This document shows, piece by piece, positions 28,290-56,250 of a stretch of 64,000 nt of DNA. Position 1 is the stretch's first letter. Every line of letters begins with the position of its first letter. The notes under the pieces are model-generated. The model made no database searches, had not been told where the DNA came from, and was given only the letters and a program-made list of their open reading frames with translations. The position numbers and the translations under genes were made by a program. Source of the stretch: Leifsonia psychrotolerans (GTDB taxonomy: Bacteria > Actinomycetota > Actinomycetes > Actinomycetales > Microbacteriaceae); the NCBI RefSeq assembly GCF_013410665.1, contig NZ_JACCFM010000001.1:1612001-1676000 (forward strand), given 5' to 3'.

Positions 28290-30164
<1,875 letters not shown>

Positions 30165-30736
30165 CTCGAGGGTGTGCCCCCGCGGCAGCCGGCTCGACCG
30201 ACAATCCGCCGACCGCCCGCGGGACGGGCTCGACCAACGGGATGGGAACGGCCAACGGGTCCCGACAAGAACGACCAACGATCCGCCGATTGAGCTCGTC
30301 GAAATCACGCGAGACGATCCCGCGAACGGCCCACCGGGTCTCGACACGCTCGACCAACGGAATCGGAACGACCAACGGGACCCGACAAGACCGACCGACG
30401 ATCCGCCGATTGAGCTCGTCGAAATCACGCGAGACAATCCCGAGAACAGCCCACCGGGTCTCGACACGCTCGACCAACGGAATCGGAACGACCAACGGGA
30501 CCCGACAAAACTGACCAACAATCCGCCGATTGAGCTCGTCGAAATCACGCGAGACAATCCCGAGAACAGCCCACCGGGTCTCGACACGCTCGACCAACGG
30601 GTTCGGAACGACGACGGGTCTCGACACGCTCTACCAACGGGTTCGGAACGACCAACGGGTCCCGACAAGACCGACCAACAATCCGCCGATTGAGCTCGTC
30701 GAAATCACGCGAGACAATCCCGAGAACAGCCCACCG
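30165..30736. repeat. 120-bp tandem repeat array, left part
   Basis: Units of exactly 120 bp start at 30241, 30361 and 30481. A fourth, carrying an extra piece of about 37 bp, runs from 30601 to the island edge. Each unit contains GGTCTCGACACGCTCGACC followed by AACGGAATCGGAACGACC and a block ending GAGAACAGCCCACC. The units differ by only a few bases. The array starts right after the DUF222 gene and has no convincing coding content. It is cut at 30736 by the mobile island and resumes at 56046. Confidence 0.9.
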
Positions 30737-31132
30737 GGTCACGTCCCGTGGAGTGGTGTAAATCCCGGCGTTTGAGCGTTCGATTATCGACGTGAAGAGC
30801 CACCGTGCGATGGTCAGTGAGAACCGTTCAAAGTTCCTCACAGAAAAGACACAAACACACGATGGCTCTTGACCAGTCTGCCCTGCTTGACCTGCTCGCT
30901 CAACTCAAGCTCACCGACGTCACCGACCGGATCCGGTCCGCGACAGAATCTCTCTACCAGGAGCTGATCGATGCGGAAGCGACCGCGTTCATCGGCGCAG
31001 CCCCGTTCGAACGCTCCGACGGGCGCACCACGCACCGCAACGGCACCCGCCCGCGCACGTTGACAACCACCGCCGGGGACCTGGATCTGAAGATCCCCAA
31101 ACTGCGCGCCGGCACCTTCTTCCCGGCCCTAC

Positions 31133-32559
31133 GGTCACGTCCCGTGGAGTGGTGTAAATCTCGGCAGGCCCGCGTTGCTTCGTTAACGTAGTGAGCCATC
31201 GTGTAATGGTCAGTGAGAACCGATCAAAGCTACTCACAGAAGGACACAAACACACGATGGCTCTAGACCAGTCTGCCCTGCTCGACCTGCTCGCTCAACT
31301 CAAACTCACCGACGTCACCGACCGGGTCCGGTCGGCGACCGAGATGCTCTACCAAGAACTCATCGATGCGGAGGCGACCGCGTTCATCGGCGCCGCCCCG
31401 TTCGAACGCAGCACGGGCCGCACGGCCCTCCGCAACGGCAGCCGTCCCCGAACGCTGACGACGACGGCCGGGGACCTCGATCTGCGAATCCCGAAGCTGC
31501 GTGCTGGGTCGTTCTTCCCGGCCTTGTTGGAGCGGCGCCGGCGGGTGGACCAGGCGCTGTTCGCGGTCGTGATGGAGGCCTACGTCCACGGCGTCTCGAC
31601 CCGGAAGGTCGATGACTTGGTCAAAGCCCTCGGCGCCGACACCGGCATCTCCAAGTCGGAAGTGTCGCGGATCTGCGCGGGCCTGGACGAGGAAGTTGCG
31701 CAGTTCCGTGACCGCACCCTCGCCGCCCAGGACTTCCCGTATGTGTTCCTCGACGCCACCTACTGCAAGGCCCGCGTCGGGCACCGGATCGTGTCCCAGG
31801 CGATCGTCGTCGCGGTCGGCGTTGCCGCCGATGGGCGCCGGGAAGTGCTCGGCTTCGACGTCGGCGACAGCGAGAACGAGGGCTTCTGGACCAGCTTCCT
31901 CCGCTCGTTGAAGGCGCGCGGCTTGGACGGGGTGAAGTTGGTCATGTCTGACGCGCACACCGGACTGAAGAAGGCCATCGGCACCGTGTTCCAGGGCGCC
32001 GGCTGGCAGCGCTGCCGGGTGCACTTCATGCGCAACGTCCTCGCCGTGGTGCCGAAAGGCTCCCAGGACATGGTCGCGTCGATCATCCGCACGATCTTCG
32101 CCCAGCCCGACGCGGAGCACATCCACAAGCAGTTCGGCGAGGTCACCACCATGCTGGGCCGCTCGCACCCGAAGGTCGCCGCCATGCTCACCGACGCCCA
32201 ACCTGACCTGCTCGCTTTCGCCGGGTTCCCGCGCCGGCACTGGCGGCAGATCTGGTCGACGAACCCGTTGGAACGGGTGAACAAGGAGATTAAGCGCCGC
32301 ACCGATGTTGTCAGCGTCTTCCCGAACCCCGCGGCGTTGCTGCGCCTGGCCGGGTCTGTTCTGATCGAGCAGCACGACGAGTGGGAGGCCGGCGAACGCC
32401 GCTACTTCTCCGAGGCGTCCATGCTCGAGCTGGCCACCATGACCAACCCGATCGAGACCGTCAATGAGGCGGTGATCCTCCCCGAACTCACCGCCGCCTA
32501 AGCTAGAACAACTGACCCGCACGGTGTTGAGAAACTCCACCACTCAGCGGGACGTGACC
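31133..32559 (+). mobile_element. IS256-family element B, intact, inside element A1
   Basis: 1,427 bp with ends GGTCACGTCCCGTGGAGTGG and CACTCAGCGGGACGTGACC. An 8-bp target duplication GGCCCTAC occurs at 31125-31132 and 32560-32567, as expected for the family. It inserted into the transposase gene of element A1. Confidence 0.93.
31257..32501 (+). CDS. IS256-family (mutator type) transposase
   Basis: 414 residues from MALDQSALLD; the frame is open 66 bp upstream but the shared start in all copies is the ATG at 31257. DDE features: FLDATYCKAR (first Asp), MSDAHTGLKKAIG (second Asp region), NPLERVNKEIKRR (Glu), and the family signature around AGWQRCRVHFMRNVLA. It differs from element A proteins at many positions (for example RVRSATEML and ERSTGRTALRNG), so it is a distinct family member. 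Intact and probably active. Confidence 0.95.
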   Translation: MALDQSALLDLLAQLKLTDVTDRVRSATEMLYQELIDAEATAFIGAAPFERSTGRTALRNGSRPRTLTTTAGDLDLRIPKLRAGSFFPALLERRRRVDQALFAVVMEAYVHGVSTRKVDDLVKALGADTGISKSEVSRICAGLDEEVAQFRDRTLAAQDFPYVFLDATYCKARVGHRIVSQAIVVAVGVAADGRREVLGFDVGDSENEGFWTSFLRSLKARGLDGVKLVMSDAHTGLKKAIGTVFQGAGWQRCRVHFMRNVLAVVPKGSQDMVASIIRTIFAQPDAEHIHKQFGEVTTMLGRSHPKVAAMLTDAQPDLLAFAGFPRRHWRQIWSTNPLERVNKEIKRRTDVVSVFPNPAALLRLAGSVLIEQHDEWEAGERRYFSEASMLELATMTNPIETVNEAVILPELTAA

Positions 32560-32642
32560 GGCCCTACTCGAGCGCCGCCGGCGGGTCGACCTGAACCGTC
32601 CCTGATTTCCTGCCGCTTTCTTTCTGGTGAAAGGATTCGGTT

Positions 32643-32957
32643 ATGCCCAAGAAACACCCAACAGAGGTTCGCGAGCGAGCGGTTCGTATGACCCTTGATC
32701 GTTTGAAGGATTACCCGTCGATGTGGGCTGCGTGCCGAGACCTGGCACCGAAGCTGAACATCGGCGCGGAGACGTTGCGGAAGTGGGTCACCCAGGCGCA
32801 GGCCGACGCCGGCGAACGGACCGGCCCCACGAGCGAGGAGCTTGAGGAGATTAAACGTCTCAAGCGGGAGAACCGGGATCTGAGGGAAACGAACGACATC
32901 CTCAAAGCGGCGGCGTCTTTCTTCGCGAGGGAGCTCGACCCTCGCAACCGTCCATAG
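32643..32957 (+). CDS. IS3-family OrfA (helix-turn-helix subunit)
   Basis: 104 residues. MPKKHPTEVRERAVRMTLD begins a transposase_8-type helix-turn-helix, and RLKRENRDLRETNDILKAA is the leucine-zipper end that pairs subunits. OrfB lies in the -1 frame, and the two frames overlap before the OrfA stop, so an OrfAB fusion by -1 frameshifting is expected as in other IS3 elements. No convincing A-rich slip site was seen; the T-rich GTCTTTCTTCGC near 32915-32928 is a possible place. Confidence 0.9.
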   Translation: MPKKHPTEVRERAVRMTLDRLKDYPSMWAACRDLAPKLNIGAETLRKWVTQAQADAGERTGPTSEELEEIKRLKRENRDLRETNDILKAAASFFARELDPRNRP

Positions 32958-32974
32958 TTGCTTTCATCCTGGGG

Positions 32975-33934
32975 ATGAAGGCGAACGGCCATGGAGTCGA
33001 GTTGACGTGTGGCGTCCTGCGCGAGCAGGGCGTCGCCGTTACTTCACGGTCGTATCGTGCGTGGAAGACCCGCGCTGCCGCCGCACGAACCCGGAATGAT
33101 GCCGCCCTCATCGACATCTTCAAGACGCTGCGGGTGAGGGATGCGAAGGGCCGGCAGCAGCCCGAGGTTCTCTACGGGCGGCGGAAGATGACGGCGTGGC
33201 TGGCCCGCAGCGGGTTCTCGGACGTGTCCAAGCACACCGTCGACCGGTTGATGCGTCTGGAGGGCATGAACGGCCTCGTCCGCGGGCGCAAGCCCCGCAC
33301 ATCGACGTCGTCTGGGAAGGACTCGGCTCGGGCTCCTGACCTCCTCAAACGCAACTTCACTGCGCCCCGCCCGAACCATAGCTGGGTGACGGACTTCACC
33401 TACGTGCCGACGTGGGGCGGTTTCGTTTATATTGCCTTCGCGATCGACCTGTTTTCGCGGGCGATCGTTGGCTGGCAAGCCTCGACGGTGAAGGACACCC
33501 CATTCGTCGAGGAGTGTTTGAAGATGGCGCTCTGGCGCCGCGACCACGCCGGTCACGCGGTGAAACCGGGAATGATTCATCACTCCGACGCCGGGTCGCA
33601 ATACACGTCGATTCGGTTCACCGAGACCGTCGTCCTCGAAGGTCTCGTGGCCTCGATCGGGAGCGTCGGCGACGCCTACGACAACGCGGCCGCCGAGACC
33701 GTCATGGGGCTCTACAAGAACGAGGCCATCGCAAAGAACTCACCGTTCATGACGGGCCCGTTGAAGACCCTCGCCGATGTTGAAGCAGTCACCTTCGACT
33801 GGCTCGATTGGTACAACAATCGGCGCCTGCACAGCTCGCTTGGGAACATGCCGCCCGAGGAATACGAGCGCAACTACTACGCTGAAACAAACGGCCCGTT
33901 AAACGACGAAGCCGCCAACAAAACGGCGGCATGA
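32975..33934 (+). CDS. IS3-family OrfB transposase (rve integrase core)
   Basis: 319 residues from ATG 32975; the -1 frame stays open further upstream to overlap OrfA. Catalytic triad: SWVTDFTYVPTW (Asp), IHHSDAGSQYTS (Asp) and NAAAETVMGLYKNE (Glu, 35 residues after the second Asp as usual). The C-terminal WYNNRRLHSSLGNMPPEEYE motif is typical. The reading frame is intact. Confidence 0.93.
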   Translation: MKANGHGVELTCGVLREQGVAVTSRSYRAWKTRAAAARTRNDAALIDIFKTLRVRDAKGRQQPEVLYGRRKMTAWLARSGFSDVSKHTVDRLMRLEGMNGLVRGRKPRTSTSSGKDSARAPDLLKRNFTAPRPNHSWVTDFTYVPTWGGFVYIAFAIDLFSRAIVGWQASTVKDTPFVEECLKMALWRRDHAGHAVKPGMIHHSDAGSQYTSIRFTETVVLEGLVASIGSVGDAYDNAAAETVMGLYKNEAIAKNSPFMTGPLKTLADVEAVTFDWLDWYNNRRLHSSLGNMPPEEYERNYYAETNGPLNDEAANKTAA

Positions 33935-35009
33935 AATCCGGGACGGTTCAACCAGGCGTTGTTCGCGGTCGTGATGGAAGCCTACGTGCACGGAGTGTCG
34001 ACCCGGAAAGTGGACGATCTCGTCAAGGCGCTCGGCACCGACTCCGGCATCTCCAAGTCCGAAGTGTCCCGCATCTGCGTCAACCTCGACGCGGAGGTCG
34101 GGCAGTTTCGCGACCGCTCCCTGTCGACCCACGACTTCCCGTATGTGTTCCTCGACGCGACGTACTGCAAGGCCCGCGTCAATCACCGCATCGTGTCCCA
34201 AGCGGTCGTCGTCGCGGTCGGTGTGGCCGCCGACGGGCGCCGTGAAGTGCTCGGTTTCGACGTCGGAGACACCGAGAACGAACCGTTCTGGACCGCCTTC
34301 CTGCGGTCGTTGAAGACCCGCGGGTTAGACGGGGTGAAGCTGGTCATGTCCGACGCGCACACCGGGCTCAAGAAAGCCATCGGGACCGTTTTCCAAGGCG
34401 CCAGCTGGCAGCGCTGCCGGGTGCACTTCATGCGCAACGTCCTCGCCATCGTGCCCAAGGGCAGCCAGGAAATGGCCGGCTCGATCATCCGCACCATCTT
34501 CGCCCAACCCGACAAAGAACACATTCTGAAGCAGTTCGGCGAAGTCACCACGATGCTGCAGCGCTCACACCCCAAGGTCGCAGAGATGCTCATCGACGCC
34601 CAACACGACATCCTCGCATTCGCCGATTTCCCGCAACGGCACTGGCGGCAGATCTGGTCCACCAACCCGCTGGAACGCGTCAACAAGGAGATCAAACGCC
34701 GCACCGACGTCGTGGGCGTATTCCCGAACCCTGCCGCGCTCCTCCGGCTCGCCGGCGCCGTGCTGGTCGAGCAACACGACGAGTGGGAAGCCGCCGACCG
34801 GCGCTACTTCTCCGAAGCATCCATGCTCGAACTCACCCTCATGAACACGCCAGCCGCGGCCGTCGAGGAGGTGACCGCGCTGCCCGAATTGAAAGCCGCC
34901 TAAACTAAAACCACTGACCTGCATGGTGTCGAGAAACTCCACCACTCAGCGGGACGTGACCCCCTAAGATAGTCAAACCGTCCAAGGACACGAACAAGGT
35001 AACGGGGGC

Positions 35010-35498
35010 TCAATAGTGGTTAACCTTCCGTACCGCACCTGCTAGGAACGCTGGTGTTGCGAGTATCGCGACGCCTAACGGCAATAGCACGAGCGACAGG
35101 CAGCCCACAAATGTTTCCCAACTCGCCGCTGTGGGCTCGAGACCAGTACGGCCCAAGACACTGAATGTGGCCCCGATTCCCCAATTCACCCCGAGCAGCA
35201 CAATTGCTGCAATGGGCGCTGAGATCAACGAGGTCATCGTTGAGACGAGAACAATAGCCCAACGAGTGTGTCGGGATCTGTCGAGAAGGGGCTGCGAAGC
35301 GCTAAATACGACTAGCCCGATGGCGGATGCGACAACCACGAAGCATATCGTCGCGAATAGCCAAATCACCGCGAACCCACCTGTAGCGAGCACTGCGACC
35401 CAACCCACAGCCAATGCAGCAGCGGGCGGCCCGAGCGCTGCCACAGGAACACGGGTGGTTAGCGTCAAAGCTTTAGTTTTCCGGCGAAGGCGTTCCAA
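35010..35498 (-). CDS. Small polytopic membrane protein, unknown
   Basis: 162 residues with four hydrophobic segments (ALGPPAAALAVGWVAVLA, GFAVIWLFATICFVVVA, WAIVLVSTMTSLISAPIAA, FVGCLSLVLLPLGVAILA). The start may be TTG 35498, which overlaps the end of the upstream secreted-protein gene by 34 bp, or a later TTG. The pair is probably co-transcribed, with the secreted protein first. No family is recognised. It is the first cargo gene after the left IS of the island. Confidence 0.55.
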   Translation of the reverse strand: MERLRRKTKALTLTTRVPVAALGPPAAALAVGWVAVLATGGFAVIWLFATICFVVVASAIGLVVFSASQPLLDRSRHTRWAIVLVSTMTSLISAPIAAIVLLGVNWGIGATFSVLGRTGLEPTAASWETFVGCLSLVLLPLGVAILATPAFLAGAVRKVNHY

Positions 35499-36574
35499 TT
35501 GAGGGTTGCCCCGGTGATGTATAGGTTATGCGGGATGCCACCCGGGTCGTTGTTAACGATCTCGCCATAGACCCGCAACGTGTAGGTGGATTCGTTGTCC
35601 TTCTTGAAAGTGTCGAACGAAATCCAGGACCCGTATCCATCGACGTGATTGCTCGTTCCATCAAAAACGAATCCCCACATTGGGCCACCCATGTCAGCAG
35701 GGTAAGGACGCCAGGCCTCGTTCCGAAACTTGCACTCAAAGTTCAAGGGCCAAGGGTAGCCAGCGAACGGGCCGACCTTGAGCGGCAGTAGCTGCCCCGC
35801 CACAGGAAAAGCTGACGGGGCACCCTCGACGGGGAACTTGCAGTTGAAGCAACTTTTCATCGTGGCTCTAGCCGATGCCGGTGTTCGGGTTCCGATTCCG
35901 TAATCGACCGTGTACCACCACGTCGGTGCCGCGAGAATTGGATAGACGGTGCCCACGGGAGCCACAACGTCCTGAACAAGACGGTTTCCCTCGAGTCTGA
36001 ACTGAGTAGTCAGGTCATGGCCGCGGGCGTCCTTCGCCACCGCGGGGTGCAGGTAGATCGATGCGCCGCTTTCGAGTTCAATGAAGTACCCGGGTTGGGA
36101 GCCTGCGGGCTCCAGCACGGCAGATGGGGCAATGGGGAGGTCAAGTTCCACACCCGACCCGACAGTTGCATTTCCCAGAGCGTATATCGCCTGCCCGCCC
36201 GAGGGAGTCGACTTCACATAGGAGGCTAGAGAGCTGTCAGCGTTAGCAAAAACCAGGAAATCGCCGGCTTCGTGCACGAAGTCAAGTGCGGGATTGAGCC
36301 CAATCGTCGTATCTTCGTCAAACTCCGGTGCGTGGAAGGTGACGGATGGATCCGTTTCCGTTCCACGAGCACGGGAAATCGGTTCGCTGATCTCGACGGA
36401 AATCCGTTCAGTCGGCGGGCCGGCCATCCTTCCAACGAAGGCCGCGATCGCCGCATCTGAATCAGGTAAATCCACCGCCGTGGATGCGACTGCTGATGGT
36501 GCGGCCATGATTAGTGATGCCACGACGAGAATGCTCGCACTCGCGGCGGCCGAAGTTCTAAGAAAAGTATTCAA
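35465..36574 (-). CDS. Secreted protein of unknown function with three cysteines
   Basis: 369 residues from TTG 36574, behind GGGGGGAA. Signal peptide (LRTSAAASASILVVASLIM followed by AAPSAVAS). An N-terminal beta-rich domain (about 90-200) precedes a C-terminal domain with SCFNCKFP and NFECKFRNEAWRPYPADMGG, then SWISFDTFKKDNESTYTLRV. The three mature-domain cysteines (CFNC and ECK) suggest a disulfide or metal site. Not recognised as a known family. Its partner is the overlapping membrane protein gene. Confidence 0.6.
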   Translation of the reverse strand: MNTFLRTSAAASASILVVASLIMAAPSAVASTAVDLPDSDAAIAAFVGRMAGPPTERISVEISEPISRARGTETDPSVTFHAPEFDEDTTIGLNPALDFVHEAGDFLVFANADSSLASYVKSTPSGGQAIYALGNATVGSGVELDLPIAPSAVLEPAGSQPGYFIELESGASIYLHPAVAKDARGHDLTTQFRLEGNRLVQDVVAPVGTVYPILAAPTWWYTVDYGIGTRTPASARATMKSCFNCKFPVEGAPSAFPVAGQLLPLKVGPFAGYPWPLNFECKFRNEAWRPYPADMGGPMWGFVFDGTSNHVDGYGSWISFDTFKKDNESTYTLRVYGEIVNNDPGGIPHNLYITGATLNWNAFAGKLKL

Positions 36575-37077: not shown

Positions 37078-37644
37078 GTGGCTGGTCAAACTGTCGGTTA
37101 CATCCGCGTGAGTACATTGGATCAGAGCACGATCCGCCAACTCGATGGCGAACACCTCGACCGTATTTTCAGCGACAAGGCCTCAGGTAAAGACCAGGAA
37201 CGTCCCGAGCTGGAAGCGCTAATCGATTTCGTTCGGGACGGAGACACCGTGATGGTGCATTCGATGGATCGCCTCGCCCGGAACCTCGACGACCTCCGCG
37301 CTATCGTCCGCCGGCTCACAGATCAGAAGGTGCAGGTGCGTTTCGTGAAGGAGAACCTGACCTTCACCGGAGACGACACGGCGATGGCCACGTTCATGCT
37401 GTCCGTGATGGGAGCATTCGCCGAGTTCGAACGGGCGCTCATCCGGGAACGGCAACGAGAAGGTATCTCCCTCGCCAAAAAGGCAGGCGTATATAAGGGG
37501 AGAGGAAAGGCGCTGAACGCCGAGAGGACGGCCGAACTCATTCGGCGTGCTGCCGCCGGTGATGCGAAAGCGGCACTTGCCCGCGACTTCGGCATCAGCC
37601 GCCAAACCGTCTACCAATACCTTCGAGCCGGACGAACCCGATGA
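37078..37644 (+). CDS. Small serine recombinase (resolvase/invertase)
   Basis: 188 residues from GTG 37078. Catalytic Ser in VGYIRVSTLDQS; the conserved arginine block in VHSMDRLARNLDDLRAIV; EFERALIREROR-type motif seen as EFERALIRERQREGI; C-terminal helix-turn-helix with FGISRQTVYQYLRAG. The length fits Tn3 resolvases and Hin-type invertases. It may resolve cointegrates or invert a segment near the upstream repeats. Its stop overlaps the next start (ATGA). Confidence 0.92.
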   Translation: MAGQTVGYIRVSTLDQSTIRQLDGEHLDRIFSDKASGKDQERPELEALIDFVRDGDTVMVHSMDRLARNLDDLRAIVRRLTDQKVQVRFVKENLTFTGDDTAMATFMLSVMGAFAEFERALIRERQREGISLAKKAGVYKGRGKALNAERTAELIRRAAAGDAKAALARDFGISRQTVYQYLRAGRTR

Positions 37645-38147
37645 CTGGCCGTACCAGGAAGGCGCGGAAGATCGAGCGCCTGCACAAGAGAGAAGTCCGA
37701 GGATTCGGAAAACATGTTCCTTGGGTGCCCGAGGACCTTCCAGCTGCCGCGGTTGAGTATTGGCCGCGCAAAGATGACTGGCCGACCGCAGCCGACATTC
37801 AGGGTTTCCTTGAAGCCATTAACGGAAGATCCGATGAACGGCTGGCTGTCCTCACCGGTCTGCACCGTTGGGCCGAACCGGCAAGTTCGCAGATGCTGCT
37901 TACCGTGGCCGCGATCATCGTTTCGATCGTTGCGGTCGCGCTGGCCGTGAGCGACTTCGATGTGCTCTTTTACGTCGGCAGTGTGAGCGCCGGCGTGGCT
38001 TACATCGTGGTCGTTGTGATCGCCATCTACCTTGCAGTGGGGATGGACCAGCGCCGCAAGATGGCGCACGTGTGGCTGAGGGCTATTGAGGTCGAGCTTC
38101 CAGGAGCGCCAGCTCCAGCTAAGCCTCAATCCACCGGTCGACTTTGA
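37641..38147 (+). CDS. Membrane protein with C-terminus replaced by an IS1380 insertion
   Basis: 168 residues as read, with ATGA overlap to the recombinase gene. Basic N-terminus (TGRTRKARKIERLHKREVRG), a soluble middle, then two membrane helices (LLTVAAIIVSIVAVALAV and VGSVSAGVAYIVVVVIAIYL). The last seven residues PQSTGRL come from the IS end. Removing the IS and one CTAAG duplication (37641-38123 joined to 39785-39859) gives a 185-residue protein ending AKQSWFSLRGSRRESQLIPR and a few more residues. Function unknown; likely a partner of the recombinase by translational coupling. Confidence 0.65.
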   Translation: MTGRTRKARKIERLHKREVRGFGKHVPWVPEDLPAAAVEYWPRKDDWPTAADIQGFLEAINGRSDERLAVLTGLHRWAEPASSQMLLTVAAIIVSIVAVALAVSDFDVLFYVGSVSAGVAYIVVVVIAIYLAVGMDQRRKMAHVWLRAIEVELPGAPAPAKPQSTGRL

Positions 38148-39779
38148 GCGTGAGGGATTTTCCGATTTCACGTTGAGTTGAGCTGTTTTTGGGGGCGGGG
38201 CATGGCTTCGCGTCGGCCTCGCTGCCGGTGATGTTCCACGTTGTCCTTGCGCCGTGTGGCTGGGTGGTCAGATGGATGCGGGTCCGGGCGGTCCGCAGGC
38301 TGCCGCGAATGCGGCGGTCCAGTGTTTCTCCCAGGGCCAGTCCTTCGGCAGGTGTAGAACGAGTCGGCGGGCCGAGGTTGAGATTCGGGCGGGAACGCTG
38401 ATGAGTTTGCGGCGGATCGTGCCGCTGCGCGCTTTCCCGAGATCGGTGCCGGTGAGAGCACCAATGGCGCGGGCGAGATTGAAAGCGATGCAGGCCAGGA
38501 TCAGCCAGGCGGCGTTTGCGGCGAACTTTCCCGAGGGCAGGTGTGCCAGCGCGGAGTCTTTCAGATCTGCGTTGACTTGTTCGATGATCGCGTGAGCGCG
38601 ATGGGTTTTGTCGGCGGTGACGGTGTCCAGGGTGCTGGTGGTGAAGAACGCGTGGAAACGGTGCGTGTCAAACAGGGTCGGCTGCGAGAGGTCTTTCTTG
38701 TTCAGTTCGGGGATGCGCCGCACGACCAGTCGTCCCTCGATGCGGTCCGCTTTCTTCTTCGAACCGAACGCGATAAATGGTACTTCGGCGACTTCCGCGG
38801 ACGACACCCAGGTTCCGGTCTGTTCGTCGCGGATCGCGTCGGTGTACTCGATGCTCGTCCAGGCGCCCTCGCCGATCGTGCCGATCGCTTTCTTCACCGC
38901 CGGATCCATCCGGGCCGTGATCGAGACTTTCGCGCCTGCCCGCCCGGCGGCGGCCACGACGGTGTGGGCGTAGAACGCCGAGTCCGCCCGCAGCAGCACC
39001 GTCCCGGTGGCGCCGTTTCCGCGGAGCCGGGTCACGTTCGCGAGGAGGTCGGCGACGAATTTCCCGGCGCCGCGCACCGAGTTCGCGGCGCCCTTGCGCA
39101 GCCGTGAGCCGACGATGATCGGCGCACTGGTTTCGGTGCTGAGGATGCCCAGCAGGGCGTTCAGGCCGCGCACTCCGGAGTAGCCGTAACCGGAGCCCTG
39201 CTTCTGGTAGCCGTGGACTTCCTTGATGGTGTCGTCGATGTCGACGAGCGCGTACTCGTCAACGCCGGCCGCGATCGGGGCCGTCTCGGCCAGGCGGCGC
39301 AGCCAACGGGACGCGACAGCATCCAGCTGCCGGATGTGCCCGAACGTGAATGCGCGCAGAAACGACCCCAGGGTCGAGGGCGCGTAGGCGCCAGTGAAGA
39401 GTTTCTTCATTCCACCGTGACGAAGCAACGCCATATCGTCGATGCAGTCGGCGCCGGCGACCATCCCGGCCACCAGCGCAGTGACCTTCAACCCCGCGTT
39501 CGCGCCGAAGTACCCCGGCAAGGTGAGGTGCGTATCGGCCAGGTTGCCGAGCCCTGTTTTCACGGCCAACGCCATCGCCGGGACGAGCCCTGCCGTCGAC
39601 ACGAGATTCGTTTCGTCGAAGGATGCTGAAACCGCCGCGGAGGTGTGAGAAAGTTGCATCTACGAGATGCCTTCCTTTTCGGTGAAACAGAACTCTAGAC
39701 AAGCTCTATTTTCGCTGATCAGTTAGGCATTCTCGGTTTAACGCGCCGCTAAACCCTCAACTCGAGCGGTGGATCGAGG
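38124..39779 (-). mobile_element. IS1380-family element, copy 1
   Basis: 1,656 bp. Ends CCTCAATCCACCGGTCGACT and (inverted) CCTCGATCCACCGCTCGAGT are imperfect inverted repeats. The 5-bp target duplication is CTAAG (38119-38123 and 39780-39784). It encodes the same 463-residue protein as copy 2 at 43284, in the opposite orientation. Confidence 0.93.
38268..39659 (-). CDS. IS1380-family transposase, copy 1
   Basis: 463 residues. DDE features: VDIDDTIKEVHGYQKQ (Asp), LLRADSAFYAH (Asp), and HAIIEQVNADLKDSALAHLP (Glu in a Y/H-x-x-I-E-Q context), as in DDE_Tnp_1 IS1380 enzymes. Ends in a short basic tail. The translation is identical to copy 2, so one is a recent duplicate of the other. Intact and probably active. 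Confidence 0.95.
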   Translation of the reverse strand: MQLSHTSAAVSASFDETNLVSTAGLVPAMALAVKTGLGNLADTHLTLPGYFGANAGLKVTALVAGMVAGADCIDDMALLRHGGMKKLFTGAYAPSTLGSFLRAFTFGHIRQLDAVASRWLRRLAETAPIAAGVDEYALVDIDDTIKEVHGYQKQGSGYGYSGVRGLNALLGILSTETSAPIIVGSRLRKGAANSVRGAGKFVADLLANVTRLRGNGATGTVLLRADSAFYAHTVVAAAGRAGAKVSITARMDPAVKKAIGTIGEGAWTSIEYTDAIRDEQTGTWVSSAEVAEVPFIAFGSKKKADRIEGRLVVRRIPELNKKDLSQPTLFDTHRFHAFFTTSTLDTVTADKTHRAHAIIEQVNADLKDSALAHLPSGKFAANAAWLILACIAFNLARAIGALTGTDLGKARSGTIRRKLISVPARISTSARRLVLHLPKDWPWEKHWTAAFAAACGPPGPASI

Positions 39780-45551: not shown

Positions 45552-45890
45552 GGTGCCTCCTTGCGGGGTGGCCGAGTCCGGCCGACATCGACAGCGGGTG
45601 CGGTCGATGGGATTGTGGGCTGTCCACCGGTGGCAGCGGTTGGCGGCGTGGAGCGGCGTCATCACATGGGACGTCGCATTTGGTGGCTTAACGACGAAAA
45701 CCGGTCAGAAGACCGGTTTTCTCGCGAGGTGAGTACCTGAATGGGAGCTCGACCGACCACTGAACAGATGATCGAGTACATCAATCAGAACAAGCGCTCC
45801 AAATATTGGAGGAGACAAATGGGGTCCATCAGGCATATGATTCGAGGCATTCCGACGATTTGGCGTCGAATAACTGAGGGGGAGTTACAG

Positions 45891-46223: not shown

Positions 46224-46225
46224 CG

Positions 46226-46979: not shown

Positions 46980-47001
46980 GAGATGATGCGGAGTTCAACA
47001 C

Positions 47002-48102: not shown

Positions 48103-48112
48103 GGGAATAGAA

Positions 48113-48745
48113 GTGCTTGAGGCCAAGGAGCTTAGCTTCGGCTACGATTCGGCCCGACCTCTCCTCGACCGATGGAACGCTCGTTTCGACGCCGGTGAGG
48201 TTGTCGCCGTAACCGGTCCTTCCGGTCGGGGAAAGTCGACGCTTCTTTACCTCCTCGGTCTCATGCTCAAACCGCAGTCTGGAACCGTGCTCGTGGCCGG
48301 CGAGAATGCGTCGGGCCTCAGCGACGGACGTCGTGCGCACCTCCGTGCAAGCACTTTCGGATTTGTGTTTCAGGATGCGGCGCTGGATGCCACGCGCACC
48401 GTGCTCGACAATGTCATTGAAACTGCTCTCTACCGCGGCGAGCCCCGCGGTTCATCCATTCGACGTGCGCAGGATCTCATGTCCCAATTTGGAGTCGGCC
48501 TCCGCGCTCAAGCCAAGCCGGGGCAGGTTTCTGGAGGCCAGGCGCAACGCATCGCCCTGTGTCGCGCGCTGCTCAACGATCCCAGGGTGCTCCTTGCCGA
48601 CGAGCCGACGGGCAACCTCGACCCCGCCTCTGCGTCCATTGTTGTGGACGCGTTCCATGCGCAGGCCGCGTCTGGCGCTGCAGTCATCGTCGTCACGCAC
48701 GATCCGACGCTCGTCGCTCGGTGCGACAGAAAGATCGAGCTGTGA
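48113..48745 (+). CDS. ABC transporter ATPase (LolD/MacB type)
   Basis: 210 residues from GTG 48113 behind GAGGGAATAG; upstream in-frame starts would overlap the adaptor gene. Walker A GPSGRGKST, Q-loop FVFQDAALD, signature VSGGQAQRIAL, Walker B RVLLADEPTGNLD, H-loop VVTHDP. The subfamily normally pairs with FtsX-like permeases that move lipoproteins or peptides or do mechanical work at the envelope. Its stop overlaps the permease start (GTGA). Confidence 0.93.
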   Translation: MLEAKELSFGYDSARPLLDRWNARFDAGEVVAVTGPSGRGKSTLLYLLGLMLKPQSGTVLVAGENASGLSDGRRAHLRASTFGFVFQDAALDATRTVLDNVIETALYRGEPRGSSIRRAQDLMSQFGVGLRAQAKPGQVSGGQAQRIALCRALLNDPRVLLADEPTGNLDPASASIVVDAFHAQAASGAAVIVVTHDPTLVARCDRKIEL

Positions 48746-49845
48746 GACGGGCGGTCGCGATAGTGCGCGAGTCTCTGGCCACTGCACGAGCCCAGCCTGT
48801 GGCATCCCTCGTCAGTGTCATCATGGTCGCGGGGATGTGCGCGACCGTGCTGCTCACGACGGGGCGAACGGTGGGGGCTGAACAATCAGTGGTGGGGTCG
48901 ATCGACTCGGCCGGGACGCGCTCGATCGTGATCCGCGCCGATCCCGGTGCAGGGTTAACCGCCGGAGTGCTTGATCGGATTGCAAATCTCGAAGGCGTGG
49001 AGTGGGCTGGCGCCTTCGGCGGCGCGCTCGACGTTACCAACGCCCTCGTTCCTGACGGCACCAAGGTTCCTGTTCGGCTCGCCTGGAGTTCGGGCCTGAG
49101 CGAATTGGGTGTGCCCGCGAAGCAAGTTATTGTGAACGATACTGCTTGGGCATCTCCCATTGCGTTGGAACAGCTTGGGATGCCCGATAAAATCGGCGGC
49201 CTCACATCTTCTGCGGGGGCCAGCTACGCGGTAGCGGGCGAGATCCGCACGCCGGACTACCTAGCGATGCTCGAACCCCTCGTGATAGTGCCTCAGACCC
49301 GGGATACCAATGCGGACCAGACCGTCAGTGTGCTCGTTGTCATCGCCAACCGCCCCGATCTTGTCGCACCCGTCGCTCAGGCGGTCCAGTCAGTGCTGGC
49401 GGTCGACGACCCCACAAAAGTCAAGATCACCACGAGCGAGGAGCTCGCGACTCTTCGCGCTCTCGTGCAAGGTCAACTCGGCAGCTTCGGACGTAACTTG
49501 GTCATCGTGGTCTTCGCACTCACCGCCGTTCTTGTCGCGGCCATCCTCTACGGACTCGTGATGTTGCGCCGCAAAGACTTTGGCCGCCGCCGTGCCCTCG
49601 GTGCCTCGCGGGGGCTCATCATTGCGCTCTTGCTCGTTCAGATGGCGGTACTGAGCATTGTCGGAACGGCGGTCGGTACGGGTCTGGCCATCGCGAGCCT
49701 TCGCCTGACCGGTGATCCGTTGCCCGGTCCAGCTTTCCTGAGTGCCCTAGCAGTGCTTGCCGTGGCAGTCGGGTTGCTTGCCGCTCTAGTTCCAGCGATA
49801 GCTGCGTCGAGACGGGATCCACTCAAAGAGCTTCGAGTCCCTTGA
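48742..49845 (+). CDS. FtsX/MacB-like ABC permease
   Basis: 367 residues from GTG 48742, overlapping the ATPase gene by four bases. One N-terminal helix (PVASLVSVIMVAGMCATVLL), a large outer domain of about 210 residues (MacB periplasmic core type: IRADPGAGLTAGVLDRIANL), then three C-terminal helices (NLVIVVFALTAVLVAAILYG; ALLLVQMAVLSIVGTAVGTG-like; LAVLAVAVGLLAALVPAIAA). Last gene of the putative peptide-export operon. Confidence 0.9.
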   Translation: MRRAVAIVRESLATARAQPVASLVSVIMVAGMCATVLLTTGRTVGAEQSVVGSIDSAGTRSIVIRADPGAGLTAGVLDRIANLEGVEWAGAFGGALDVTNALVPDGTKVPVRLAWSSGLSELGVPAKQVIVNDTAWASPIALEQLGMPDKIGGLTSSAGASYAVAGEIRTPDYLAMLEPLVIVPQTRDTNADQTVSVLVVIANRPDLVAPVAQAVQSVLAVDDPTKVKITTSEELATLRALVQGQLGSFGRNLVIVVFALTAVLVAAILYGLVMLRRKDFGRRRALGASRGLIIALLLVQMAVLSIVGTAVGTGLAIASLRLTGDPLPGPAFLSALAVLAVAVGLLAALVPAIAASRRDPLKELRVP

Positions 49846-50291
49846 ACAAGCACACGCGCCTGCCATAGACGGGTGGACGGCGACTGCACCCTCGCACGAA
49901 TCTCCACAGGTCAGGAATCAACCAAACCGAGGGCAGTCCCCTATGCTCGTGCGCGTGCGAGCATAGTCTCACCCGTCGTATTGCCGTGCCGACGTCCAAA
50001 CATGAGAGGCTAGCATCGGGCATCGGATCCCTCGCCTTGGAAGACCTCCGATTAGGCTTCTGCCGGGCGAAAGAGAGCAAGTTGGCTTCGCCGTGTTCTA
50101 CCTCGTTCTCAGACGGAGACTACTCCAACCCGTGGTTCGGCACTGGAATACGGAACCGTCCTCGATGTCCACACGAAGCGCCATTGCCCGTCGTGCATCT
50201 CTGCGGAACGCGGCTCTGTTAGAGCCCTACGCCCGCTCTCGCCAGTTCCTCACCGACCACCGACAAGGACGTTCTCACGCTTCTTGACCTC
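49846..50291. other. Intergenic stretch with an IS end and possible frameshifted gene start
   Basis: 446 bp. It contains the isolated IS3-type end at 49897-49941. Frames at 50162-50255 (MSTRSAIARRASLRNAALLE) and 50260-50291 (DKDVLTLLDL, joined to the gene at 50292) could be the shifted N-terminus of the TIR-like protein. Nothing else was recognised. Confidence 0.45.
49897..49941 (-). mobile_element. Isolated IS3-type end (remnant)
   Basis: About 45 bp match, in inverse orientation and with two visible differences, the left end of the IS3-family element at 51731 (shared CTCCACAGGTCAGG and TCAACCAAACC and GGCAGTC). No transposase gene is attached. It shows that the same element, or part of it, was once also present here. 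Confidence 0.75.
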
Positions 50292-51050
50292 ATGTTCGTT
50301 GAGAACCCTAACGCCGATTACATTCTGGCTAGCGAAGAATTCAAGCGACTAAATGAGAAGGTCCTGGAACCTCGGGGCGTCTTGCTCACCGTGGACGGCT
50401 ATCAGTACACCAACTCTTTACCGGCCCCTGCACCTGCCCACAACACCCCATCCATAATCGCTGCCCCGCCCATGACATCGACAAAGGCCACTGTGAACGG
50501 TCTCCCGCCCTGGCCCACAGAAGCACCAGCACCGACACCCGAAGGGAAGGCTCAGCGGGACCCGAAATCAGTATTCGTGGTTCATGGCAGAGACACCCGA
50601 CCCGTCGAAGTCGTGCGCCAGTACTTGCACTTCCTCGGCCTCAGGATGATGACTTGGTCCGACGCCGTAAACCTTACGGGTAAGCCGCAGCCACACACCT
50701 ACGAAATCGTAAAGGCCGGCATCGTGATCTTCTCGCCCGATGATGAAGCTCGTCTCAAGCCGAAGTTTGCCGACGGGAAGGAGCTAAAGCCAGAAGGTCA
50801 GCCCCGGCAGAACGTGACGCTCGAAGCGGGAATGGCCTTTGCGACGGCAACCGAGGGGACGATCTTTGTCCAGTCGGAGCGTGTGCGCGCGATTTCCGAC
50901 ATTGAAGGGTTCAACTGGGTATCGCTCGACGGGACCTGGGACAACCGTAAAGATCTATTGAATCGACTCCGCAACGCAGGCGCAGCTGTCAATCAGGCCA
51001 ATGACAATCTCAATGATGCGCTTGCCGGGCCTTTCAAGATCACCGAGTAA
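50292..51050 (+). CDS. CAP12/TIR-like nucleotide-binding protein
   Basis: 252 residues from ATG 50292. A Pro/Ala-rich linker separates a short N-terminal part (PNADYILASEEFKRLNEKVL) from a C-terminal CAP12-type TIR domain: SVFVVHGRDTRPVEVVRQYL, VKAGIVIFSPDDEA, QNVTLEAGMAFATATEG (conserved Glu), and the IEGFNWVSLDG end. TIR domains of this family are effectors in anti-phage signalling (CBASS, Pycsar) that cleave NAD. No cyclase lies beside it. The start may be lost through a frameshift upstream. Confidence 0.72.
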   Translation: MFVENPNADYILASEEFKRLNEKVLEPRGVLLTVDGYQYTNSLPAPAPAHNTPSIIAAPPMTSTKATVNGLPPWPTEAPAPTPEGKAQRDPKSVFVVHGRDTRPVEVVRQYLHFLGLRMMTWSDAVNLTGKPQPHTYEIVKAGIVIFSPDDEARLKPKFADGKELKPEGQPRQNVTLEAGMAFATATEGTIFVQSERVRAISDIEGFNWVSLDGTWDNRKDLLNRLRNAGAAVNQANDNLNDALAGPFKITE

Positions 51051-51140
51051 CGCGCAGAGCTAGCCGGGATCACTCCTCGGCCCGTTCCGGATGTCACACC
51101 CCCGAGCTAGCCTCGTTGTACCCCAGATGAGGGAGTGACG

Positions 51141-51722
51141 ATGAGTGCTGTTCTTGAAACTGTCGATGAGTCCTGGCGTCAGGTGCCAACCCTGCTCAGA
51201 AAGCTTGACGAGTTCCCGATCGGCAAACTGGAAGCCTGGTCGACGGCGCTCCTGCACAACTGCGTCGCCTTTCTCCCCGGTGTTCAGCGATCCGTCGCGC
51301 AGCTCACAGGACTCGACCCCGAACTAGAGCTTCCCTGGCGACGTGGTGGTAAGGGCGAGGGAGACATAGCCGGCTGCACCGAGCACTCTTTGATAGCACT
51401 CGCGTACATCGAGACCAAGGGCGCGAAAACTCAGGTCTCCTACGACTACGATTGCCCGTTCAAATGCGGCGAATGGCAGTCTCAGTTCGTCCATATGACT
51501 CATCTGAATGAGCCTCTTCTCGTTGTGGCCCCGCAGCGGAATCTCGCCTCAAGGGAGAAGACCTGGCACACACACGAGGGCTTGCCGGCCAGCGCCGCCG
51601 TGACTAGCTATTCGGTGCTGGCCGACATGATCGAGGATGCGCTCAGGACCGGCAACCTGCCGAGCTGTTCTCTTCTGGAAGCCCTGTATGACGTCGAGAG
51701 GGTCGACCTCCCGGGAAGCTAG
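51141..51722 (+). CDS. Unknown soluble protein next to the TIR-like gene
   Basis: 193 residues from ATG 51141 (GAGGGAG upstream; GTG 51135 also possible). No signal or membrane helix. Readable features: WRQVPTLLRKLDEFPIGKLE, DYDCPFKCGEWQSQFVHMTH (a Cys-Pro-x-x-Cys pair), and EGLPASAAVTSYSVLADMIE. Not recognised. It lies 90 bp after the TIR-like gene in the same direction and ends 8 bp before the IS3-family element, with its stop codon native. A functional link with the TIR-like gene is possible. Confidence 0.6.
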   Translation: MSAVLETVDESWRQVPTLLRKLDEFPIGKLEAWSTALLHNCVAFLPGVQRSVAQLTGLDPELELPWRRGGKGEGDIAGCTEHSLIALAYIETKGAKTQVSYDYDCPFKCGEWQSQFVHMTHLNEPLLVVAPQRNLASREKTWHTHEGLPASAAVTSYSVLADMIEDALRTGNLPSCSLLEALYDVERVDLPGS

Positions 51723-51794
51723 GGTGATGGGACTGCCCCCGGTTTGGTTGACTCCTGACCTGTGGAGATTCGTCTTCGCTGGAAAGATGTCTTT

Positions 51795-52079
51795 ATGCCC
51801 AAGTCCTACCCACCCGAGTTCCGACGCGATGTTGTCGCGGTCGCCCGGAAGCACGAAGCCCCGCTGAACCAGATCGCGAAGGACTTCGGGATCTCCGAGT
51901 CCTGCCTGGCGAACTGGCTGAAGAAGGCCGACGTCGAAGACGGCGTCAAGCCCGGCGTGACCGAGAAAGAATCCGCTGAGTTGCGCGAAGCGAAGAAACG
52001 AATCCGGCTCCTCGAACAAGAAGCCGAGGTCATGCGCCGGGCTGTCGCCTATCTCTCCCGGGACGTCAACCCAAAATGA
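51795..52079 (+). CDS. IS3-family OrfA, element 2
   Basis: 94 residues from ATG 51795 (an in-frame upstream extension to 51762 is unlikely). Transposase_8 helix-turn-helix (EFRRDVVAVARKHEAPLNQI, then DFGISESCLANWLKKADV) and a leucine-zipper end (RLLEQEAEVMRRAVAYLSRD). The stop overlaps the orfB start (ATGATG). Confidence 0.9.
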   Translation: MPKSYPPEFRRDVVAVARKHEAPLNQIAKDFGISESCLANWLKKADVEDGVKPGVTEKESAELREAKKRIRLLEQEAEVMRRAVAYLSRDVNPK

Positions 52080-52488
52080 TGTACCCGCTGGTCCTTGAAA
52101 TGGCCGTCGATGGTGTTCCCGTCACGGTGACCTGCCGGGTGTTGGGCTTCTCCAAACAAGCGTTCTACCAGTGGAAACGCAACCCCGTCTCCCAACGCGA
52201 CTGGGACGACGCCCACCTCACCAACACCGCCTGGGACGCCCACCAGGACGACCCCGCGTTTGGCTACCGGTTCATCGCCGACGAACTCCACCAGGCTGGC
52301 CTGACGGCGGGCGAGAACCGGGTGTGGCGGCTCTGCTCCCAGCAGCGGCTCTGGAGTGTCTTCGCGAAGAAACGCGGCCTCACCCGCAAGGCCGGCCCGC
52401 CCGTGCACGACGACCTCGTCGAGCGGGACTTCACCGCGACACGCCCGAATCAACTCTGGCTGACCGACATCACCGAGCACCGCACCGC

Positions 52489-54124
52489 TTGGATTCCAGC
52501 GATCGTCGCAACGCTCTGATCTATGCAGTGTCTAGTAAAGCAGTGAAGCGTTCGGCCGGAGTCTCCCAGCCGAGGGTCTTCTGAGGCCGTTCGTTGAGTT
52601 CCGCCGCGATTGATTCGAGGTCGGCGAGGCCGAAGGTGCGCAAGTCACTTTTGCGAGGCAAGTATTGGCGCAGGAGCCCGTTCGTGTTCTCGTTCGTGCC
52701 GCGCTGCCAGGGCGAGCCAGCCTCGCAGAAGTAGACCGCCATGTCGGTCGCCCTGACAAAGCTTCGGTGCTCGCTCATCTCCACCCCTTGATCCCACGTC
52801 AACGTGCGACGCAACTGGGCGGGAAGCACGCTGAACGCGGTGACGATGCTGTCGCGGACTGCGTCCGCGGTCCGTTCGATCGGGAGATGCCCGAGGAGTA
52901 CATATCGGGTGGTGCGCTCGACGAGCGTCGCGACGGCCGACCCGCTTCCCGCGCCGATAATGAGATCGCCCTCCCAATGCCCGGGAATCGTTCGATCGTT
53001 GACCTCCGCGGGCCTCTCGGACAACGGCGTCATCGTGTCGGTGAATCGACTGGTGCGGGCCGTCGCACTTTTGTGAGACTTCCGGCGTCGGCGACCCCGA
53101 CGGAGCCCGGCAGCGAGCTCCTTGGTGAGCTCGCCGCGGGCATGAACGTAGACGGCCTGGCAGATCGTCTCGACACTCACGCGCATCTCCCGGTCATGGG
53201 GAAAGTCTCGCCGAAGACGATGACTGATCTGCTCCGGGGACCATCGCTTGGTCAGCTTTCCCGCCACATAGTCGCGCAGGGGCCCCTCCCGGGCGAGTCT
53301 GGCGGTACGAGGTCGTTCGCGACGCTTCGCTGAGGCGCGGTGGGCGGTGTGGGACAGGTAACCGCTGCGGCCGACAGTGTTGCGTCGCAGTTCTCGACTG
53401 ATTGTCGACGGCGCCCGGCCGAGAGCGACCGCAATCTGTCGGATCGATCTACCTGCCATCTGCAGGTCCTTGATCCTTTCTCGCTCGAGGAGACTCACGA
53501 AGCGGGGGTTGATGACCTTCTCGATCTTGTCGAGCGCGACGCGCTCGCCTTGGACCCACGCAGTTCTAGAATTCTTCACGTTCGAAAGTATCTCTGCCGG
53601 ACGGTAAAGAACCACACGCCCATCGGGATGGATGCGGCCCTTCGAGAAGACACGGATGCCCTTGTCCCAGTCGAACGCCTGGTGGTTCTCGACCCCCAAC
53701 TGCTCGGCGGCAACTCTGCGAGAGACTCCGTCCCGTCGCAGCTGGAGGAATTGCTGCCGTTTGGCGTCGGAGGCGGCGGAGGTGAAAATTCCGGCCTTCT
53801 GTGCCCAGACGTAGCAAGTGACTCGGTTGAAGCCGAGTTCGCGAGCGACTTTCGACACGTTCCTCGTGAGAGCAAGGCGCCGGAGGAACTCAGCCCTTTC
53901 TTCCGCTGAGTAGCGCCGTTGCGTGCTCCGAGGCGTCGATAACCCAGCCAGCTTCATCCATTTGTATCCAGCATCTGGATGCACCCCGACCGTGGTAGCG
54001 GCGGCACGAACCGAGCCCCCACGATCGATCATCGCCATGAACGCAATCCTCTGCTGTTCTGTATATTTCCTCGCCGGCATCCCAACTCCTCGTCGTCGGT
54101 GTTGCGACGATCGCTGGAATCCAA
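52489..54124 (-). mobile_element. IS30-family element
   Basis: 1,636 bp with perfect 24-bp inverted repeats at 52489-52512 and 54101-54124. A 2-bp target duplication GC fits the family. It inserted in orfB of the IS3-family element 2. Confidence 0.92.
52521..54080 (-). CDS. IS30-family transposase, long form
   Basis: 519 residues, longer than the usual 300-400. Two N-terminal helix-turn-helix units: RGGSVRAAATTVGVHPDAGY and TRNVSKVARELGFNRVTCYV. Then the IS30 HTH GRSIRQIAVALGRAPSTISR and the DDE core: HWEGDLIIGA (Asp), TWDQGVEMSEH (Asp), RGTNENTNGLLRQYLPR (Glu). The frame is intact and the protein is probably active. Confidence 0.93.
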   Translation of the reverse strand: MPARKYTEQQRIAFMAMIDRGGSVRAAATTVGVHPDAGYKWMKLAGLSTPRSTQRRYSAEERAEFLRRLALTRNVSKVARELGFNRVTCYVWAQKAGIFTSAASDAKRQQFLQLRRDGVSRRVAAEQLGVENHQAFDWDKGIRVFSKGRIHPDGRVVLYRPAEILSNVKNSRTAWVQGERVALDKIEKVINPRFVSLLERERIKDLQMAGRSIRQIAVALGRAPSTISRELRRNTVGRSGYLSHTAHRASAKRRERPRTARLAREGPLRDYVAGKLTKRWSPEQISHRLRRDFPHDREMRVSVETICQAVYVHARGELTKELAAGLRRGRRRRKSHKSATARTSRFTDTMTPLSERPAEVNDRTIPGHWEGDLIIGAGSGSAVATLVERTTRYVLLGHLPIERTADAVRDSIVTAFSVLPAQLRRTLTWDQGVEMSEHRSFVRATDMAVYFCEAGSPWQRGTNENTNGLLRQYLPRKSDLRTFGLADLESIAAELNERPQKTLGWETPAERFTALLDTA

Positions 54125-54619
54125 GCCGACGAGGGCAAGCTCTACCTCTGCGCGATCAAGGACGTCTACTCGAACAAGATTGTCGGGTACTCCATCGACT
54201 CCCGGATGAAGGCGTCGCTGGCTGTCGCCGCGGCCCGCAACGCGATCAGTCAACGCACCATCGACGGCACGATTTTGCACTCCGATCGCGGGTCCCAATT
54301 CCGCTCCAACGCCTTCGTTCGCGTGCTGAAGAACAACGGCATCACCGGGTCGATGGGCCGCGTCGGCGCGTGCGGCGACAATGCCGCGATGGAGAGCTTC
54401 TTCGCGCTGCTGCAGAAGAACGTGCTCGATCGGCAACGCTGGACTACCCGGGAAGAACTGCGCCTGGCGATGGTCGTCTGGATCGAAAGGACCTATCACC
54501 GTCGACGCCGCCAACGACGACTCGGCAAGCTCACGCCAATCGAGTTTGAGACAATAAACGTGGCCCTCAAAGCCGCGTGAAACCACTAACCCTTCGAGTC
54601 AACTGAACTCGGGGCAGGG

Positions 54620-56045
54620 TCACGTCCCGTGTAGTGGTGTAAATCTCGGCGTTTGAGCGTTGCTTCGCCAACGTGAAGAGCCACCGTGCGATGGTCAGTG
54701 AGAACCGTTCAAAGTTCCTCACAGAAAAGACACAAACACACGATGGCTCTTGACCAGTCTGCCCTGCTTGACCTGCTCGCTCAACTCAAGCTCACCGATG
54801 TCACCGACCGGATCCGGTCTGCGACGGAATCGCTCTACCAGGAACTGATCGATGCGGAGGCGACCGCGTTCATCGGCGCCGCGCCATTCGAACGCTCCGA
54901 CGGGCGCACCACCCACCGCAACGGCACCCGCCCACGCACGTTGACCACCACGGCCGGGGACCTGGATTTGAAGATCCCGAAGCTGCGTGCCGGCACGTTC
55001 TTTCCCGCGCTGCTGGAGCGCCGCCGGCGGGTCGACCAGGCGTTGTTCGCGGTGGTGATGGAAGCGTATGTGCACGGGGTGTCCACCCGGAAAGTCGACG
55101 ATCTCGTCAAGGCGCTTGGCGCGGACTCCGGCATTTCCAAGTCCGAAGTCTCTCGTATTTGCGCCAGCCTCGACGCGGAGGTCGGGCAGTTCCGCGACCG
55201 CTCCCTGTCGACTCACGACTTCCCGTATGTGTTCCTCGACGCGACGTACTGCAAAGCCCGGGTGAATCACCGCATTGTGTCCCAAGCGGTCGTCGTCGCG
55301 GTCGGTGTCGCCGCCGACGGACGCCGGGAAGTCCTCGGATTCGATGTCGGAGACACCGAGAACGAGCCGTTCTGGACCGGCTTCCTGCGGTCGTTGAAGG
55401 CCCGCGGGTTGGACGGCGTGAAGCTGGTCATGTCCGACGCGCACACCGGGCTGAAGAAAGCCATCGGGACCGTGTTTCAAGGCGCCAGCTGGCAGCGCTG
55501 CCGGGTGCATTTCATGCGCAACGTGCTCGCCGTCGTGCCCAAGGGCAGCCAGGAAATGGTCGGCTCGATCATTCGCACCATCTTTGCCCAGCCCGACAAG
55601 GAACACATCCTGAAGCAGTTCGGCGAGGTCACCACGATGCTGCAGCGTTCACACCCCAAGGTCGCACTGATGCTCGTCGACGCCCAACACGACGTGCTCG
55701 CGTTCGCTGACTTTCCGCAGCGTCACTGGCGGCAGATCTGGTCCACCAACCCGTTGGAACGCGTCAACAAGGAGATAAAGCGCCGCACCGACGTCGTCGG
55801 CGTGTTCCCGAATCCTGCGGCGCTCCTCCGGCTCGCCGGGGCCGTGCTGGTCGAGCAGCACGACGAGTGGGAAGCCGCCGACCGGCGCTACTTCTCCGAA
55901 GCGTCCATGCTCGAACTCACGATCATGAACGCCCGGCCCGAAACCGTCGAGCAGGTGACCGCACTCCCCGAGCTGAAGGCCGCCTAAACTAAAACAACTG
56001 ACCCGCACGGTGTTGAGAAACTCCACCACTCAGCGGGACGTGACC
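54620..56045 (+). mobile_element. IS256-family element A2, right end of the island
   Basis: 1,426 bp with ends GGTCACGTCCCGTGTAGTGG and CACTCAGCGGGACGTGACC. The left flank (CGGGGCAG) does not match the right flank (GCCCACCG). The right flank instead matches the left flank of element A1. This points to mobilisation of the whole segment. Confidence 0.92.
54743..55987 (+). CDS. IS256-family transposase, element A2
   Basis: 414 residues from MALDQSALLD. Its N-terminus is the same as that of the broken A1 protein (RIRSATESLYQELIDAEATA). The C-termini differ slightly (A2 NARPETVEQVTALPELKAA against A1 NTPAAAVEEVTALPELKAA), so A1 and A2 are close relatives rather than identical copies. DDE motifs as in element B (FLDATYCKAR, MSDAHTGLKK, NPLERVNKEIKRR). 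Intact; it could move the island. Confidence 0.95.
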   Translation: MALDQSALLDLLAQLKLTDVTDRIRSATESLYQELIDAEATAFIGAAPFERSDGRTTHRNGTRPRTLTTTAGDLDLKIPKLRAGTFFPALLERRRRVDQALFAVVMEAYVHGVSTRKVDDLVKALGADSGISKSEVSRICASLDAEVGQFRDRSLSTHDFPYVFLDATYCKARVNHRIVSQAVVVAVGVAADGRREVLGFDVGDTENEPFWTGFLRSLKARGLDGVKLVMSDAHTGLKKAIGTVFQGASWQRCRVHFMRNVLAVVPKGSQEMVGSIIRTIFAQPDKEHILKQFGEVTTMLQRSHPKVALMLVDAQHDVLAFADFPQRHWRQIWSTNPLERVNKEIKRRTDVVGVFPNPAALLRLAGAVLVEQHDEWEAADRRYFSEASMLELTIMNARPETVEQVTALPELKAA

Positions 56046-56250
56046 GCCCACCGGGTCTCGACAGGCTCGACCAACGGGTTCAGAACGACCAACGGAATCG
56101 GAACGACGACCGGTCTCGACACGCTCGACCAATTGGATCGGAACGACCAACGGGTTCGGAACGACGACGGGTCTCGACACGCTCGACCAACGGAATGAGA
56201 ACGACCAACGGGATGGGATCGACCGACGAGTCTCGACCGGCCCAACCAAC
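56046..56250. repeat. Repeat array, right part
   Basis: It continues the array cut at 30736. GCCCACC is followed by GGGTCTCGACAGGCTCGACC, then further degenerate copies near 56130 and 56170 (GGTCTCGACACGCTCGACC) with AACGACCAACGG blocks. No coding content. It ends 12 bp before the stop of the second ATPase gene and may also terminate it. Confidence 0.85.

Follow-up and report, generated by a model that had tools for sequence, protein, structure and literature searches.

The principle behind blocks of DNA that are bounded by insertion sequences (ISs) has long been known, and composite (compound) transposons bounded by IS256-family elements constitute the Tn4001 type. According to a published account, translocatable units, also called pseudo-compound transposons, are bounded mainly by ISs of the IS6/IS26 family, and the 25,380-bp Tn7086 is one such unit of this family (PMC13055272). 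An example from the IS256 family is ISCth4, for which the source gives a copy-out/paste-in mode of transposition and a subterminal TGTAAA in both ends, along with the statement that IS256 forms circles (PMC7780238).

The island described here measures 25,309 bp (30737-56045) and lies in a window of 64,000 nucleotides, which is the whole stretch of DNA that was analyzed and corresponds to positions 1612001-1676000 of a single-contig 3.82-Mb genome that is 99.99% complete. Its left end is formed by an IS256-family element (hereafter L) and its right end by another (hereafter R). As in the Tn4001 type, two IS256-family elements with intact outer ends share a common 8-bp duplication and hold cargo between them. 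Unlike in that type, the island is bounded by two distinct ISs of 91-92% identity, in direct orientation; its cargo comprises an exporter, a resolvase, and a TIR gene; and more ISs have piled up inside. The direct IS copies and the similar length recall Tn7086, for which the account also gives an 8-bp duplication in part of the strains, but the boundary ISs of the island belong to the IS256 family, to judge from the R transposase (PF00872), rather than to IS6, and they are two different ISs (PMC13055272). Likeness to ISCth4 extends to the Mutator-type transposase, the 8-bp duplications, and a subterminal TGTAAA at the left end, which is present in both L and R, whereas the final 30 bases at the right end of R lack this motif (PMC7780238). 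Overall, the island belongs to an ordinary kind of mobile element and exemplifies it clearly. Its record is unusually clear, with a crosswise duplication, a clipped neighboring IS, and nested insertions, and it should be of use mainly to students of IS256-type elements.

The island sits in a repeat array, with a piece of the array on either side, between a DUF222 gene on the left and an opp operon on the right. The 8-bp word GCCCACCG abuts the outer tip of L (30729-30736, forward strand) and also the outer tip of R (56046-56053, forward strand), with both copies exactly in register with the outer IS ends, which read GGTCACGTCCC.. in L and ..GGGACGTGACC in R. On the inner sides, the flank to the right of L (34962-34969) is CCCTAAGA and the flank to the left of R (54610-54617) is CGGGGCAG, and thus no duplication flanks either IS individually. 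Deleting the block together with a single copy of the word leaves a join (25 + 25 bases) that agrees with a unit of the left array piece in 49 of its 50 bases. None of 120 slid joins reaches this value, and the best of them, with 48 matching bases, lies 58 bases off, a distance equal to one period of the right array piece. The empty site would read as one uninterrupted array unit, ..GAGAACAGCCCACCGGGTCTCGACA... An earlier reading of the sequence alone (hereafter the sequence-only reading) had reported the two outer copies of the word, had noted that each IS by itself lacks matching flanks, and had proposed that joining the flanks restores the repeat array, and all of these observations were borne out.

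The two boundary elements differ in their state of preservation. L (30737-34961, forward strand) retains both ends and is interrupted by two nested ISs, whereas R (54618-56045, forward strand) is intact and carries a 414-aa open frame that starts at its ATG. The R transposase matches the Mutator-type Pfam family Transposase_mut, PF00872 (E value 2.3e-134), over profile positions 13-378 of 379. The sequence-only reading had called the left IS dead and the right one intact. The description of L and R as two IS256-family copies in direct orientation holds for the family and for the orientation but not for the implied sameness of the ISs, which are 92.4% identical in their first 394 bp and 91.2% identical in their last 1018 bp. 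The ends on which transposition of the block would depend are nearly the same in both elements, with 27 of 28 bases shared between the two left ends and 31 of 31 between the two right ends. Two further copies in the genome are 100% and 99.8% identical to R, which suggests that R has been active recently. In a search for an L-type element elsewhere, which covered 398 family genomes and, with R as the query and at most six candidates scored per genome, the genus, R itself was nearest at 91% and all others reached 83% or less.

The inner neighbor of R provides a second kind of evidence. An IS3-family element (51729-54617, forward strand), which is interrupted by an IS30-like element (about 52488-54126), lacks its last four bases, TCCC, where R starts. 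It terminates in ..GGGGCAG, that is, in ..CTCGGGGCAG, at R. An intact IS3-family copy at about 763.1-764.4 kb of the genome, with the duplication ACT, ends in ..GGGGCAGTCCC (..CTCGGGGCAGTCCC), and the end of an IS3-family element from another genus of the family (L199) is also ..GGGGCAGTCCC. The missing TCCC was looked for to the right of R and was not found there; the array stands in its place. R therefore sits 4 bp inside the end of the IS3-family element without the remainder on its other side, which means that the outer neighbor of R has been exchanged. Such an exchange fits transposition en bloc and integration of a circle equally well.

Taken together, the crosswise duplication and the clipped end of the IS3-family element beside R indicate that L, R, and the interior arrived together. 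It is probable that 30737-56045 is a composite transposon that was inserted en bloc between the DUF222 gene and the opp operon. The block has two related ISs, a single outer duplication, and intact outer ends, and one transposase is intact as well. All of the marks are accounted for if a composite transposon was inserted en bloc in one event and other IS insertions took place besides. The sequence-only reading had called the island composite-transposon-like, and the crosswise duplication and the clipped IS3 end support this designation; that the block moved by transposition rather than by recombination between ISs is inferred.

The course of events might have been as follows. L and R, as related but different IS256-family elements, would have come to flank the cargo in a donor molecule, where R would have inserted 4 bp inside the end of the IS3-family element. 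The transposase of R, or that of L before its splitting, could then have used the outer left end of L together with the outer right end of R, and the whole block would have been inserted into the repeat array by transposition, duplicating GCCCACCG. The block might have traveled via a circle, as described for IS256. Further ISs would have split L and enlarged the cargo, presumably following the en bloc step. If the IS30-like element, the pair of IS1380-like copies, and the two insertions in L were all later arrivals, coordinate subtraction gives a block of about 17.5 kb at landing. A bolder version of this course can be offered tentatively, as a possibility that falls somewhat short of an even chance. 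It holds that the block is a hybrid transposon, in which one IS256-type transposase moved about 17 to 25 kb by using an IS end that is 9% diverged, possibly as a large circle by copy-out/paste-in, in which case any two related members of this IS group could combine to form a functional transposon. The island also shows how an exporter and a defense-like gene could be acquired together by an actinobacterium in a single event, and that such a block can be bounded by two ISs that differ from each other.

The same layout of outer duplication and direct IS pair could have arisen if a single IS256-family element resided in the array with GCCCACCG and a circle with the cargo and a second such IS entered through homologous recombination with the resident one. 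Such a sequence of events is considered unlikely, even though it accommodates the clipped IS3 end as readily as transposition does. A place for the crossover can be pointed out, because L and R, which differ by 5-17% when compared by segment, have one 128-bp tract without any difference (R positions 54-181; 54671-54798 and 30790-30917 in the window), and other family members that cover this tract differ there by 10-24% from both L and R. However, a crossover in the tract requires that the resident IS joined the tip of L to the body of R and that the IS on the circle joined the tip of R to the body of L. Nothing that was found supports such exchanged tips in both parents, and two other R-type copies with their own duplications match R at tip and body alike, unless they are later offspring of R. 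Since L and R differ along their whole length outside the tract, neither one has the appearance of a simple L-R hybrid. Furthermore, three elements of relatives (L226, L227, and L229) are identical to R over about positions 64-107, and thus the tract may be a conserved leader, a reading on a par with gene conversion. The 128-bp identity was considered as proof of recombination and was rejected, because the elements of relatives have part of that leader.

It is very improbable that L and R were inserted independently at the same word in two array units, with the interior later replaced by deletions and insertions. In favor of this idea, the left array piece contains GCCCACCG at four places (30329, 30449, 30569, and 30729), and the word occurs once more at 56046. 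In the window as a whole it is not rare, with seven forward and five reverse occurrences. Among 111,800 pairs of cuts placed anywhere in the two array pieces, 465 (0.42%) have a common 8-mer, so an array as the target makes an 8-base match easier, which counts against the composite reading. However, independent insertion needs the loss of both inner duplications, a gain of cargo by further events, and a separate deletion for the missing IS3 tip at R. The choice of the same word twice is likewise at odds with the behavior of the IS256 group in this genome, where a search with the end motifs gave seven exact right ends and seven matching left ends. Each of the five other complete copies found in the genome carries its own duplication of 8-9 bp, namely CTCGAATC, CTTTTAACG (9 bp), CTCGTGGT, AATCGGTT, and GGCCCTAC, the last of which belongs to the copy nested in L. 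Five copies with five different words argue that there is no fixed target word. An exchange of flanks among the copies, whether genuine or introduced during assembly, would have damaged at least one of these duplications. Among the seven genome elements that have both end motifs, the duplication shared crosswise by L and R is the only one of its kind.

An assembly artifact that joined IS copies wrongly, for which the three near-identical R copies in the genome might be cited, is hardly credible, as the genome is one contig with 99.99% completeness and an exchange of R copies would have disrupted the flanks at the other two, both of which have perfect duplications of their own.

Under the preferred reading of en bloc insertion, the island has accumulated additional ISs. 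L is split by an IS256-family copy (31133-32559, forward strand), with its own 8-bp duplication GGCCCTAC, and by an IS3-family copy (32592-33950, forward strand) with the 3-bp duplication ACC. The nested IS256-family copy is 100% identical to the copies at genome positions 337052- and 801461-, and for this reason the splitting of L looks recent. By eye, the copy at 801461 also lies within array-like sequence. In the interior, two IS1380-like copies, each 1666 bp long and 100% identical to the other, stand in inverted orientation around IS21-like genes (38120-44943). The first copy (38120-39785, reverse strand) has its own 5-bp duplication CTAAG, the istB/istA pair of the IS21-like element follows (40275-42588, reverse strand), and the second copy (43278-44943, forward strand) has its own 5-bp duplication CTTAT. 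The inverted pair was considered as an inner composite transposon and was rejected, because each copy has its own duplication. The duplications CTAAG and CTTAT imply that the two IS1380-like copies came separately, in contrast to L and R.

The sequence-only reading had listed recombinase, defense-like, and export genes as the contents of the island, and these can now be specified as a resolvase, a TIR-domain gene, and an ABC export operon. The resolvase is a serine recombinase of 188 aa (37078-37644, forward strand). It is preceded by a gene for a 369-aa protein (35465-36574, reverse strand) whose start resembles a signal peptide by eye and which matches no family in Pfam, PADLOC, or NCBIfam. 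Small open frames lie between the second IS1380-like copy and the export operon (47002-49845, forward strand), which encodes a peptidoglycan-binding-domain protein (adaptor-like), an ABC ATPase, and an FtsX permease. The gene for the TIR-domain protein (50292-51050, forward strand) matches the Pfam family CAP12-PCTIR_TIR and the PADLOC candidate PDC-S35. It is followed by a gene for a 195-aa protein (50292-51722 together) for which Pfam, PADLOC, and NCBIfam give no family, and the two genes could possibly form a defense pair. Standing alone before the TIR gene is a 45-bp stretch (49896-49940) that is 96% like the left end of the IS3-family element, as the inverse of 51729-51773. Among the frames scanned, none of the matches to Pfam or NCBIfam is to a drug-resistance family.

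A second copy of the block, which would support the composite reading without being strictly required by it, was found neither in 56 genus relatives nor in a sample of 299 family genomes, own genome included. Similarly, no record of a plasmid collection covers 80% of the query, with 12% as the best coverage among the best 20 of 91 records, and none of the titles and abstract openings found in a literature search names this element. Parts of the block do have counterparts. A query with the resolvase stretch gave matches (with E < 1e-20 or elsewhere in the query) in 26 of the 56 genus relatives, mostly at 67-76% identity, with one 318-bp piece at 87%. Homologues of the export operon are present in nine genus relatives (64-76%) and in one genome of the family sample (72%), and one relative (G034) matches a 446-bp piece (about 45295-45740) at 89% identity.

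Each flank was also searched against 57 genus genomes, own genome included. An exact empty site was not found among the 56 relatives, where the best DNA identity to the right flank is about 75%. The DUF222 gene of the left flank is multi-copy in its own genome, and relatives show only short matches to it. With a right flank at 75% or less and a multi-copy gene on the left, the comparison was limited to the gene level, in 12 relatives. Two of these (G011 and G047) have a homologue of the operon at 56262-63377 and then, about 0.4 kb on, an opp operon with no island in between. The first gene of this second operon is nearest to the gene at 25194-27086 in the window (45%, versus 39% for the other solute-binding protein). 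Within the 20 kb examined, these two genomes have no IS end motif, array motif, or DUF222 match. Because array and DUF222 gene are missing there along with the island, the two relatives demonstrate variation at this place and nothing more. In a third relative (G025), two opp operons adjoin, and the solute-binding gene at their border is about equally like both. The other nine of the 12 have no second opp operon adjoining within the stretch examined. Three of these nine (G014, G050, and G006) have a DUF222 match about 13-14 kb away. In its own genome, the DUF222 gene next to the island (28263-30164) has two further relatives (1531086-1533410 and 2186910-2188669), with 70-80% DNA identity by piece.

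IS256-family elements of relatives provide a wider context for the flanks of L and R. A set of 30 of 49 places plus two own-genome loci contained 23 full-length copies; four of these, including R, come from the own genome, and the other 19 belong to relatives. When the ends were allowed to shift by up to three bases, 12 of the 19 full-length copies in relatives had a duplication of at least 8 bp, and seven had none (L211, L213, L216, L217, L220, L221, and L225). Such a proportion implies that flank loss is common in this IS group, which speaks against the composite reading, and similar rearrangements may be common in the genus. At one of these loci, which lies near a contig end (L213 in G018), an IS256-family copy is followed by 6 bp and then by the end motif of another, a tandem pair that is reminiscent of a circle junction.
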